A stretch of DNA of 64,000 bases from Paenibacillus sp. OVF10 (GTDB lineage: Bacteria; Bacillota; Bacilli; Paenibacillales; Paenibacillaceae), in assembly GCA_022836915.1 (NCBI GenBank), contig CP094668.1, positions 2,356,001-2,420,000 of the forward strand. The letters are read 5' to 3'. This document shows positions 44,439 through 50,736 of the stretch, piece after piece (the first letter of the stretch is position 1; every line of letters begins with the position of its first letter). The position numbers and the translations under genes are program-made. The notes below the pieces were generated by a model. That model made no database searches, was not told the DNA's origin, and worked only from the letters and a program-made list of their open reading frames with translations.

Positions 44439-45055
44439 ATGAACGATGATACTACAACCGAAGAGACGATCACCATAACAGTATATTCTTCCCAAGAAGC
44501 AGACCAAGCTTCCACAAGTGTTGTCCGAAAAGGAAGTTACTCGATTACTCAAATCCGTAACCAACCCTAAACATAAGGCTTTATTGTCTCTGACCTATTC
44601 TTCCGGGCTTCGTGTAGGTGAAGTTGTGCGTCTGCGTTGCAGCGATCTGGATATTGAAAGGAAAACACTCGTCGTGAGAGAGGGAGGGGCAAAAGGATCG
44701 GAGGACGCTTCTTTCAAGCCTCGCCTGGGATATGGTGCAGAAATACATAGCTGAATATAGACCCAATCGTTGCCTCTTTCCGGGGCAATCTTCTGATCGA
44801 CATCTTACCGAGCGGAGCGTGTAGAAGGTTTTTGAAGAAGCCAGACAACGCGCAGGAATTATGAAAAAGGTAAGTATTCATGCGCTGAGGCATTCCTTTG
44901 CCACTCATTTGCTGGAAAACGGGACAGACCTGCGCTACATTCAGGAGTTACTTGGTCATACGAGTGCACGTACAACTCAGCGATATACGCATGTTAGTAC
45001 GAAAAATATCCAGCGTATTCAAAGCCCGCTGGATCGGATGGATTTGGGAGATTGA
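44439..45055 (+). pseudogene. IntI/Xer-like tyrosine recombinase, truncated and inactivated
   Basis: From about 44515 the sequence reads LPQVLSEKEVTRLLKSVTNP, then SSGLRVGEVVRLRCSDLD (catalytic Arg I), HALRHSFATHLLE (HxxR), LLGHTS (catalytic His) and QRYTHVSTKNIQRIQSPLD with the nucleophilic Tyr. The YTHV...SPLD ending is shared with integron integrases such as IntI1. A frameshift near 44690 (GGGGCAAAAGG) and a TAG at 44821 in ERSV*KVFEE, where the family has Gln, break the frame. The N-terminal core-binding domain is missing; MNDDTTTEETITITVYSS, with AAAGGAG upstream, occupies its place in another frame. It lies just upstream of the cassette array it would have served. Confidence 0.82.
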
Positions 45056-45105
45056 GTACTATGCTACCCTCCCTTTTTTTACGGAATTTTTCTTCGCAAA
45101 TGTCA

Positions 45106-45184
45106 CAATATGGGTTATCATATACGTAGTTCAGCTAATGGACAGGATGTGTGGTATTCACGAAGTACATAAATTAGATGTTAT
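45106..45184 (+). other. Integron attI-like leader, copy 2
   Basis: Shares 29 identical bases (45106-45134) with 36446-36474, then GTGGTATTCACGAAGTACAT and AAATTAGATGTTAT. GGTATTCACG is also the inverted counterpart of the CGTGAATAC box in the attC-like sites. Sequence conservation with the other copy ends at GTTAT (45180-45184), where the first cassette begins. It lies 51 bases after the recombinase remnant, the normal place for attI. Confidence 0.65.
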
Positions 45185-45239
45185 CGGAAATCAATGAGAA
45201 GAATAGAAATCATATTAGTATAACTAAAGGAGTGTGTAT

Positions 45240-45803
45240 TTGTTGAATCCAATATTATTAGATTTTCCGAGTCAAATAAATACTGATAGACTCTTAATAA
45301 GAATGCCAATGCCAGGAGATGGGAAAGCAGTTTACGAAGCAATAATAAATTCTATTGATGAATTGAAGAAGTGGTTACCATTTGCTACGAAAGAGCAATC
45401 AGAAGAAAACACTGAAGTAAATATGAGAGAAGCTCACCTGAGATTTTTGAAGCGAGAGGACCTGAGGCTTCTTATTTTCCACAAAGACACCAATCAATTT
45501 ATTGGTTCTTCAGGTCTACATAATCCCAATTGGGATGTTCCTAAGTTTGAAATTGGATATTGGATAGATGCGCGTTATAGTGGAAATGGATACATGACCG
45601 AAGCAGTACAAGGAATTTGTGAGTATGCTTTTCACGAATTAAAGGCTCGGAGATTAGAAATTCGATGTGACACATTAAACAATAAGAGTAAGGCGATTCC
45701 AGAAAGATTAGGTTTTTTATTAGAAGGAACTCTAAGATTCGAGGATACCTCCGTAGATGGCAAAGAACTAACAGATACTTATATATATGCAAAGACAAAT
45801 TAA
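45240..45803 (+). CDS. GNAT acetyltransferase of the RimJ/RimL type, cassette 1
   Basis: About 188 residues. TTG 45240 (or 45243) lies 8 bases after AAAGGAG. Motifs: TDRLLIRMPMPGDG at the start, IGYWIDARYSGNGYMTEA (acetyl-CoA pyrophosphate loop) and ERLGFLLEGTLR. The family acetylates protein N-termini, polyamines or antibiotics; the closest architecture is ribosomal-protein serine acetyltransferase. It is the first gene after the attI-like leader and is followed directly by an attC-like site. Confidence 0.88.
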   Translation: MLNPILLDFPSQINTDRLLIRMPMPGDGKAVYEAIINSIDELKKWLPFATKEQSEENTEVNMREAHLRFLKREDLRLLIFHKDTNQFIGSSGLHNPNWDVPKFEIGYWIDARYSGNGYMTEAVQGICEYAFHELKARRLEIRCDTLNNKSKAIPERLGFLLEGTLRFEDTSVDGKELTDTYIYAKTN

Positions 45804-45838
45804 TAATTTTGAAAGTAATTCGAAGATGACGTTGACAT

Positions 45839-46000
45839 CCGATAACAAAACATTCCTGCTGCGTCGCTATCGCTCCTTGGTCACCAAGAGGGATATCGAA
45901 GAAGTTTATTCTAGCGACACATCCAACCAGCTAAGTCTATCGACCCGTTCCCTTCGGTCACTTAAGCCGCTTGAACGTCAGGAATGCGCGAACGTTATGT
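45839..46000 (+). repeat. attC-like site 1
   Basis: 5' box CCGATAAC (45839-45846), 3' box GTTATGT (45994-46000). The ends pair through CATTCCTG/CAGGAATG. An inner hairpin is built on GCTAAGTC..CACTTAAGCC. CCGATAAC is the exact complement of GTTATCGG at the start of this cassette (45180-45187), as in a genuine cassette whose attC closes in the circular form. Confidence 0.8.
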
Positions 46001-46081
46001 GAAATCAGCGCAAACCCTAAATGTTAAACTTCTTTTTGATATCGAACAGAATACAAAATACTTGATCGGTGGTGTTTGACA

Positions 46082-47104
46082 ATGCAAGAACAGTCAAAAC
46101 ATTTAGTTGCTGTATCTGCATTTGTTCAGAATAAGATGGGGCATGTATTGATGGTTCGAACACATTTACGAGCTGATACTTGGGAATTGCCGGGAGGATT
46201 TGTTGATGCTGGGGAGTCATTAGAACTAGCGGTGTGTCGTGAATTCCTTGAAGAAACCGGAGTTGTCATCCGCCCCATCGGAGTGTCCGGCGTCTACTAT
46301 AATGAAAGACTTCACGTATTGTCTGTGGTTTTTAATGCGGACTATGTGAGCGGTGAAATAACAATTCAACCCGAAGAGATACTAGATGCGAAGTTTTTAC
46401 ACTTGGATGAAACTACAATGGATGAATACATTAAACGGCCTCATTTAAAATCTCGCATTTTAGATACCCTACGTGTGCCACGCTCTGTCCCCTATGAGAC
46501 GTGGAATTTGAATCCACCTGACTATAAGTTGTTGTCAAGAATAGACGGGGAACAGCAGAGCTCTAAAAGAGTATTTTTGCTCACGGGAAAGCCAAGAGCA
46601 GGGAAATCAACTTTGATAAAAAAACTTATAAATGAGATTGGATCAGAAACTTGGGGTGGATTTTACACTGAGGAAATAACTAATTCAATTAATGAGCGAA
46701 TTGGTTTCAGATGCGTATCCGTTGATGGAGAGAGTGTGGAAATTGCGCATGTAGAGAGTCCCAGTCAAACTCGAATTGGAAGATACGGAATCGATATAGA
46801 AAAATTCGAAGAATTTGCTTTAAGAGTATTACAAGAGGCCATGACATTTAAAAAGATTGTTGTAATTGATGAAATTGGATTCATGCAGAATTTATCCTTA
46901 TCTTTCCAAAGAAAAGTACAAGAAATCATTTATGATAATCGAATTGTTTTAGGGACAGTTCCGCTAGATAGTCATCCGGGAATTGACAAAATCAAATATA
47001 ACAAGGAAGTACAGCTAGTAAGTATTAATGAATCTACACGTGATATGATAACAGAATTATTAGTGAAGGATATTTTGAAAGCTTTAGATTCAAATACATT
47101 GTAA
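46082..47104 (+). CDS. Nudix hydrolase fused to a THEP1-like NTPase, cassette 2
   Basis: 341 residues. Residues 1-145 are a Nudix domain with the box GGFVDAGESLELAVCREFLE followed by ETG. Residues 160-340 form a P-loop NTPase: Walker A LLTGKPRAGKST, GGFYTEEI and Walker B VVIDEIGFMQ, the pattern of THEP1/NTPase_1 proteins. Nudix enzymes cleave nucleoside diphosphate derivatives, and THEP1 hydrolyses nucleoside triphosphates, so the fusion may scavenge or destroy a modified nucleotide. The ribosome binding site is weak (GGTGG). It is flanked by attC-like sites on both sides. Confidence 0.85.
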   Translation: MQEQSKHLVAVSAFVQNKMGHVLMVRTHLRADTWELPGGFVDAGESLELAVCREFLEETGVVIRPIGVSGVYYNERLHVLSVVFNADYVSGEITIQPEEILDAKFLHLDETTMDEYIKRPHLKSRILDTLRVPRSVPYETWNLNPPDYKLLSRIDGEQQSSKRVFLLTGKPRAGKSTLIKKLINEIGSETWGGFYTEEITNSINERIGFRCVSVDGESVEIAHVESPSQTRIGRYGIDIEKFEEFALRVLQEAMTFKKIVVIDEIGFMQNLSLSFQRKVQEIIYDNRIVLGTVPLDSHPGIDKIKYNKEVQLVSINESTRDMITELLVKDILKALDSNTL

Positions 47105-50005: not shown

Positions 50006-50030
50006 GGGTATTCAAGGAGGCTAAGTACTT

Positions 50031-50127
50031 TAGTTAACATTATATTCATGCATCAATCATACGCCCTTGGTCCGACAGTTGCCGGCCACCCAGCATAAGC
50101 TGGGTAGTGAATACAGAATCGTTAGGT
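50031..50127 (+). repeat. attC-like site 6 (short form)
   Basis: 5' box TAGTTAAC (50031-50038), 3' box GTTAGGT (50121-50127), ends pairing through TATTCAT/GTGAATA. Only 97 bases, with the inner hairpin CACCCAGC/GCTGGGT replacing the longer stem of the other sites. Confidence 0.72.
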
Positions 50128-50189
50128 GAAAACCTGCTAGACATATATACTTTTACATTCGTTCTTTCCATCTTGGAATCTCCTCAATT

Positions 50190-50216
50190 ATTGTGGGATG
50201 GAATTTGTATGTTTAG
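50190..50216 (+). pseudogene. Last codons of a third serine hydrolase copy
   Basis: The frame IVGWNLYV followed by TAG matches the C-termini VVGWNLYV (43800) and IVGWDLYF (52628). Nothing else of the gene is left here. Confidence 0.65.
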
Positions 50217-50262
50217 AGTGTTGTAGAAAATACTATGTCCTGTAGAATAGGAGTTCAATTAC

Positions 50263-50706
50263 GTGATAGTCTTTGAAGAGGTTTTAAACAAGGTTAGTTT
50301 TGAAGAAGTTTGGAGTAAGATGCTGGAATATTATCCCGATCTGAGTCAAACCAATGAAAAGTATTTATCCGTTTATGAATCATTGTTTTCAAAAACTTTA
50401 ACTACGAACTTAGAGAACATGATTATTCATATAGATGCGGTTGATTCTGACGATTCTCCTAATAGAGAATATATTGAATATCGGTTACATGGAAAGAATA
50501 ATTCGCCTGAATGGAATGGATACTGGGATATTTCTGCAAATGACTGGGATGAGTGGTTAGGTTTTTATGTAGATCATAAAGTAATTGAAAATTTTTCGAA
50601 TGAACAAATTGTAGCGCTTTGTTTATATGAGATGACTTGGTTTGGTTTGACTGAAGAACAAATCAAAATCAAGACCGATAACTCGGAGAACGACAAATCA
50701 TCTTAG
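50263..50706 (+). CDS. DUF6557-like acidic protein
   Basis: AGGAG lies 10 bases before GTG 50263. 147 residues, very acidic, Trp-rich, with YWDISANDWDEWLGFYVDHK and VALCLYEMTWFGLTEEQI. The layout resembles DUF6557 proteins, which occur in immunity-gene clusters; the assignment is tentative. GAACGTTATCT (50726-50736), an attC-like 3' end, follows 20 bases after the stop. Confidence 0.55.
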   Translation: MIVFEEVLNKVSFEEVWSKMLEYYPDLSQTNEKYLSVYESLFSKTLTTNLENMIIHIDAVDSDDSPNREYIEYRLHGKNNSPEWNGYWDISANDWDEWLGFYVDHKVIENFSNEQIVALCLYEMTWFGLTEEQIKIKTDNSENDKSS

Positions 50707-50720
50707 TAAGCACTACTCAA

Positions 50721-50736
50721 CAAAGGAACGTTATCT
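50721..50736 (+). repeat. 3' end of a degraded attC-like site
   Basis: CAAAGGAACGTTATCT matches the AACGTTAT ends of sites 1 and 4. The rest of the site is not recognisable between 50707 and 50720. It is the last trace of the array before the second serine hydrolase. Confidence 0.4.

Follow-up and report, generated by a model that had tools for sequence, protein, structure and literature searches.

A decayed gene-cassette array in a Paenibacillus chromosome, probably left by an integron whose recombinase family lacks the IntI patch

The 64,000-nucleotide (nt) stretch of DNA analysed here (the window) covers positions 2356001-2420000 of contig CP094668.1 of Paenibacillus sp. OVF10 (G000:C1:2356001-2420000 in our labelling). 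Its region 44439-50116 carries a broken tyrosine recombinase gene, a leader with an attI-like site and an array of gene cassettes (Table 1), which we describe together with the intact recombinases and arrays of related genomes. As originally predicted from the letters alone, six consecutive one-gene units lie on the plus strand at 45180-50116, and the array starts after a recombinase remnant and a leader. Each unit has an attC-like site that is found by a covariance model, and the leader stops before GTTAT.

Table 1. Features of the cassette array and its surroundings in window coordinates (ORF, open reading frame)
Feature	Position	Strand	Details
Broken recombinase gene (patch-less integron-type tyrosine recombinase)	44439..45055	+	PF00589 on two pieces
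Leader with attI-like site	45056..45183	+	Consensus in relatives ends GTGGTATTTACGAAGTACATAAATTAGAT, then GTTA; core G 45180, 124 bp past recombinase stop
Cassette 1	45180..45993	+	GNAT acetyltransferase ORF 45234-45803; attC-like site ~45840-46000
Cassette 2	45994..47314	+	NUDIX + NTPase_1 fusion ORF 46076-47104; attC-like site ~47130-47321
Cassette 3	47315..48035	+	Interrupted ORF (47320-47589, 47641-47877); attC-like site ~47882-48042
Cassette 4	48036..48852	+	HD-domain ORF 48072-48689; attC-like site ~48695-48859
Cassette 5	48853..49565	+	NUDIX ORF 48899-49402; attC-like site ~49417-49573, core altered
Cassette 6	49566..50116	+	CdiI_3-type immunity ORF 49577-50005; attC-like site ~50032-50127
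Isolated core-like GAACGTTATCTGAA	50726..50742	+	Basis: family D8

The recombinase remnant opens with an ATG at 44439 and keeps the start region together with two stretches matching residues 178-252 and 248-371 of the intact recombinase of a related locus, L044, at 80% and 86% identity (contig positions 2400473-2400703 and 2400681-2401052). There is one stop in each of these stretches, and most of the N-terminal half is missing. Because this broken gene is the only close recombinase copy in the genome, we regard the window integron as a decayed copy.

The cassettes are 814, 1321, 721, 817, 713 and 551 nt long, in array order. A long repeat does close each unit, with a measured length of 92-192 nt rather than the 97-193 first given, and the uniformity first ascribed to the units breaks down in three places: the core that follows unit 5 reads CGTATG (near 49566) where GTTAG or GTTAT was claimed throughout, the arms of site 1 are degenerate, and the reading frame of unit 3, whose product we take to be HIT-like from a motif (no Pfam family matched), is interrupted. 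Using a covariance model built from 27 sites, none of them from the window's genome, we found the six array sites at their expected places with E-values from 2.5e-16 to 4e-5, the best match being that of cassette 6. A seventh, weak match (E 0.0039) at 37193-37352, roughly 8 kb before the array, is a solitary degenerate attC-like element with an altered core. The full 7-nt R'' box corresponds to the start of its own cassette in three of the six cassettes (1, 3 and 5) and partially in cassette 2, with no match in cassette 4, where R'' has diverged, or in cassette 6. The array had been drawn as far as 50736, which is too far: the DUF6557 gene at 50263-50706 has the same sequence in another genome, G041 (locus L040), where it follows the neighbouring hydrolase gene, and is therefore chromosomal flank rather than a cassette. 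The isolated core-like sequence beyond it is possibly the end of a lost site.

Same-genus genomes carry an intact recombinase of 371 residues, and arrays of such sites begin directly behind it. In 19 of 29 readable leaders of relatives, as well as in the window, the distance from the recombinase stop to the first core is 120-128 nt; in the remaining ten the best core match is nearer or farther away. The conserved leader ends TATTTACGAAGTACATAAATTAGAT and is succeeded by 12 different first 7-mers in 20 arrays (window included), a pattern that insertion of different cassettes at a single point would produce. In 131 of 197 cassettes the start agrees with the cassette's own R'' box at all three variable bases, which is the mark of an integron; agreement of these bases with the start of the next cassette was found in 17 of 197 (2000 shuffles: mean 12.0, maximum 24). 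Among the 130 cassettes with a full R-box match, complementarity between start and R'' reaches roughly position 18, and positions 10-11 are consistently mismatched. An arm match at 8 or more of 9 variable positions was found in 49% of 196 cassettes versus 0.8% in shuffles, and it falls along the array with a small effect (Spearman -0.22, p 0.0018, n=196), which entry of cassettes at attI followed by decay would predict. Cassettes have a median length of 870 nt, and the longest ORF is on the array strand in 179 of 196.

Since the sites are inverted repeats behind genes, they could in principle be ordinary palindromic repeats or terminators. However, they match their own cassette starts, mark exact cassette ends and are linked to attI and a recombinase, all of which contradicts that explanation. 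Own-start complementarity, the conserved distance to attI and the hits of the covariance model were all above their respective controls. An Rfam search of the window gave no match, and terminator-like sites were no more frequent than in shuffles. We give the explanation a negligible probability. The scan for promoter consensus, including a cassette promoter (Pc) near attI, likewise gave no excess (promoter-like sites numbered 18, and shuffles averaged 19.2), which lends slight support to the earlier statement that promoters are missing between the units.

Comparison of cassettes suggests that they are exchanged between arrays, with ends at GTTA. Among 196 cassettes from 25 genomes (pairs near full length and at least 80% identical), there were 30 near-identical pairs, 26 of which had unrelated flanks on both sides, and identity ended at GTTA in the six pairs inspected. 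Members of one pair (99.85% identical) lie in two arrays of a single genome, G041. In the window, cassette 3 shares 95.7% identity with a cassette of Paenibacillus sp. PAMC 26794 (L099) and cassette 5 shares 98.9% with one of genome G070 (L056); the flanks of both pairs have no BLAST similarity. The L044 array contains two copies of one cassette (2133-2528 and 3722-4117), with identical 131-amino-acid ORFs for a DUF6979 protein. The original prediction had raised the doubt that the repeats might never flank different genes in related genomes or be unrelated to any recombinase; the search of those genomes found them flanking different genes and adjoining a recombinase.

The attC-type sites (74 sites) are 78-261 nt long, multi-stemmed and able to fold, with R'', L'', L' and R' boxes. 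In the short type (27 aligned rows), an 8-bp L stem closes three small stems; this L stem has no bulge in the 27 sites, with 96.8% of its cells paired. Over the whole short-type structure, 93.7% of cells pair, compared to 28.9-38.2% with the partner slid, and compensatory changes occur in 12 of 23 pairs (51 double-change cells versus 19.7 in shuffles). No consensus structure emerged when sites of the 105-130 nt type were aligned, and the short type alone was modelled. According to the accessible text of PMC2727003, extrahelical bases in the L arm of classical attC set strand choice, one side of the unpaired spacers is A-rich and the opposite side GC-rich, and branched inner parts were already known for VCR sites; the branching of the present sites is thus not new by itself. 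Their spacers, ATAA versus CAGGAAC, keep the classical asymmetry, and the extrahelical bases are not kept.

When 70 selected sites were folded computationally in their circular form, the bottom strand gave the lower value in 76% (mean -28.2 versus -26.6; Wilcoxon 3.2e-8), and computed arm pairing covers 16 positions in the circular form versus 5.8 in the integrated form. The same platform might instead have its recombinase act on double-stranded cores or extruded cruciforms in the Xer manner, the folded sites serving regulation or protection. We consider this unlikely, because selection for folding is indicated by covarying stems and by arms that are specific to each cassette and paired in the circular form alone.

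By sequence comparison, the recombinase family lacks the IntI patch, that is, the I2 helix between the catalytic boxes. The gap between KDR and HxLRH spans 55-62 residues in 78 of 79 locus recombinases (one was unmeasurable), with a median of 59 in 114 close relatives (one at 192) and 66-70 in three Xer-type proteins of the window's genome; it is 100, 100 and 101 in IntI1, IntI2 and a third annotated IntI, and has a median of 100 (range 63-124) in 198 proteins from the IntI search. Residues R224, K249, H314, R317, H340 and Y349 (L044 numbering), which we take to be the catalytic set, are invariant in 15 relatives. Against NCBIfam, the IntI score is 202.9 bits (cut-off 265) in two stretches, and the XerA-type family (NF040815) scores 216.2 and 215.2 bits for two proteins, under its cut-off of 220. 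Foldseek of the predicted fold returned IntI4 (2a3v, E 1e-15) and XerA as best matches, and by Z-score XerA (21.4) ranks above IntI4 (16.8). In our tree, which has very long branches in its own-genome Xer outgroup and mostly proteobacterial IntI rows, the IntI rows form one clade (99/100, branch 1.09) and the patch-less rows, needing two changes, form a sister group to IntI or a grade.

These results bear on two further explanations. The array does have the classical order of attI, cassettes and attC, as a classical IntI integron with a merely decayed integrase would, but the intact relatives have no patch: the IntI profile matches them in two pieces across the genus, ending near 177 and restarting near 231, with positions 178-230 missing. 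None of the 75 same-genus genomes passes the TIGR02249 (IntI) cut-off, and the IntI proteins stand in their own clade. A classical IntI integron is contradicted on all three counts and seems to us very improbable. The choice first offered, between a decayed chromosomal integron and a convergent cassette system, holds in part on both sides: the organisation (recombinase, attI, one-gene cassettes, attC) and the decay are those of an integron, and the recombinase family is without the IntI patch. Movement of the cassettes by XerC/XerD at dif-like sites would fit a recombinase that is Xer-like, but pdif modules carry short dif-like sites on both sides of a gene, and here the sites are long and multi-stemmed and attI adjoins a dedicated recombinase, so that this too has very little probability.

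The N-terminus of the recombinase appears to be HARP-like in profile comparisons and in its predicted fold. A family profile of this region compared with PDB sequences had a sole match below E 0.1, namely 4o66 (SMARCAL1 HARP; E 8.4e-4, the next at 0.12), and the domain profile matches 58 of 79 locus proteins versus none of 243 IntI-search proteins. PF07443 matches 20 of 31 N-termini at E up to 1 (best 1.6e-6), with scores under the curated cut-off of 25 bits for L044 (12.1) and for further N-termini (13.1-18.7). With single N-termini, Pfam missed HARP in three of six, and the family profile was needed. Foldseek placed HARP first for the predicted N-terminal domain at a weak E of 0.09. Because the protein has no patch and the L stem no extrahelical base, we infer that the HARP-like domain replaces the IntI patch.

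The distribution of sites and recombinases was determined in genus, family, order and phylum samples of genomes, which overlap. Sites of this type are present in 74 of 75 same-genus genomes (E up to 0.01), so the system is not rare in the Paenibacillus group. They were also found in 131 of 245 family-sample genomes (15 of 19 genera), in 85 of 198 order-sample genomes (18 of 43 genera) and in 3 of 249 phylum-sample genomes, two of these being same-genus and one a marginal match outside the order (G471, E 3.8e-5). Apart from that match, our scans place this attC type within a single bacterial order. The recombinase (E up to 1e-30) occurs in 56 of 75 same-genus genomes, and 18 of the 19 others still have sites.

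For recombinase loci from named genomes, the best 80 of 556 relatives were used, and a complete cassette was defined as a start, its own R'', a stem and the next core, beginning at most 160 nt from the recombinase. Of 22 Paenibacillaceae loci whose downstream sequence reaches 900 nt or more, 18 have such an adjacent cassette, compared with none of 22 in the upstream mirror and a shuffled mean of 0.3; among the other loci the count is 16 of 40 (upstream 0 of 34; shuffled mean 0.77, maximum 4). The 16 loci, mostly metagenome bins whose labels may be wrong and of which about one could be chance, are labelled Clostridiaceae, Nitrospinae, Alkaliphilus, Micrarchaeota, Nitrospirae (three), Aminicenantes, Altarchaeum, Thermotogae, Spirochaetota, Bacillus, Atribacteria, Deltaproteobacteria, Chryseobacterium and Fusibacter. 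A looser count of any cassette-like pair gave 26 of 40 loci versus 11 of 40 after one shuffle, a weak control, and the stricter count is preferred.

Single loci add further observations. A Chryseobacterium plasmid recombinase (L084 5923-6966) shares 42% identity with the Paenibacillus one across 91% of its length, including the N-terminal part, and has several co-directed genes downstream. Halanaerobacter (L143) has a five-site array farther from the recombinase. Behind the recombinase of Fusibacter sp. 3D3 (L172 11276-14499) stand long near-identical 300-nt repeats at a spacing of ~380 nt, some ending in AACGTTA, which complicate the picture there.

Taken together, the window array is very probably the decayed remnant of a patch-less chromosomal integron, in which an intact recombinase of the family would excise and insert cassettes. 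Cassettes would be excised between GTTA cores and captured as circles at attI; the substrate would be a single strand, likely the folded bottom strand of the site, probably gripped by the HARP-like N-terminal domain in the role of the IntI patch. The system thus appears to work like an integron, the kind of platform known for the spread of antibiotic resistance, and its recombinase without a patch and its sites without extrahelical L-stem bases would make it a second kind rather than a member of the classical IntI integrons. We file the family as patch-less integrons.

PMC7790495, in its accessible text, describes the patch as necessary for cassette capture and as not having been seen in any other protein, and states that forms intermediate between Xer-type recombinases and IntI are missing. 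The accessible parts of two further sources describe one complete Firmicutes integron and a few attC clusters without integrase (CALINs) in surveys (PMC9024848), and most archaeal cassette arrays as found without integrase (PMC9668308). In searches of openly licensed literature, leaving subscription papers and preprints aside, no title or abstract among the results described Paenibacillus integrons or patch-less integron recombinases. On balance, we lean towards the view that patch-less integrons, in which a HARP-like domain substitutes for the IntI patch, form a second class that occurs in many bacterial phyla and in some archaea, is either a grade that gave rise to IntI or an independent solution, and accounts for part of the arrays listed without integrase. 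With a widespread patch-less cassette platform, natural proteins could be used to test whether the patch is necessary. The platform also extends gene-cassette traffic to a Gram-positive group for which surveys list few integrons, and patch-less recombinases may explain why most archaeal arrays appeared to have no integrase.

Two related serine-hydrolase-like genes, of 599 and 598 amino acids, flank the window integron (42001-43800 and 50832-52628). In relatives, copies of these genes stand beside recombinase copies, and hydrolase and integron may have been duplicated as one unit. The window's genome has a second cassette array at contig positions ~3339471-3346952 (L068), and in many relatives a second array is roughly 0.9 Mb away from the first.

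Compared to known systems, the Paenibacillus system resembles IntI integrons (classes 1 and 2 and chromosomal) in having a recombinase, an adjoining attI and one-gene cassettes in one direction, in attC sites with the four boxes, a cassette start complementary to its own R'' and asymmetric central spacers, and in exchange at GTT cores. It differs from them by the missing patch and the HARP-like N-terminus, by the L stem without extrahelical base (27 short sites), by three small inner stems in the commonest site type and by a recombinase gene in the cassettes' own direction. XerA-type proteins (NF040815; 4a8e, 5hxy) provide the best family profile, the best fold by Z-score and a patch-less catalytic domain, but the profile score of 216 is below the cut-off of 220, and the present proteins have an extra N-terminal domain and lie alongside cassettes and attI. 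The genome's second array resembles CALINs, having sites and no PF00589 match nearby; unlike for CALINs, a recombinase family is known for these sites, one that patch-based integrase searches would probably pass over. The N-terminal domain is like the HARP domain of SMARCAL1 (PF07443, 4o66) by profile and predicted fold, but its partner is a tyrosine recombinase and not a helicase, with several members under the Pfam cut-off.

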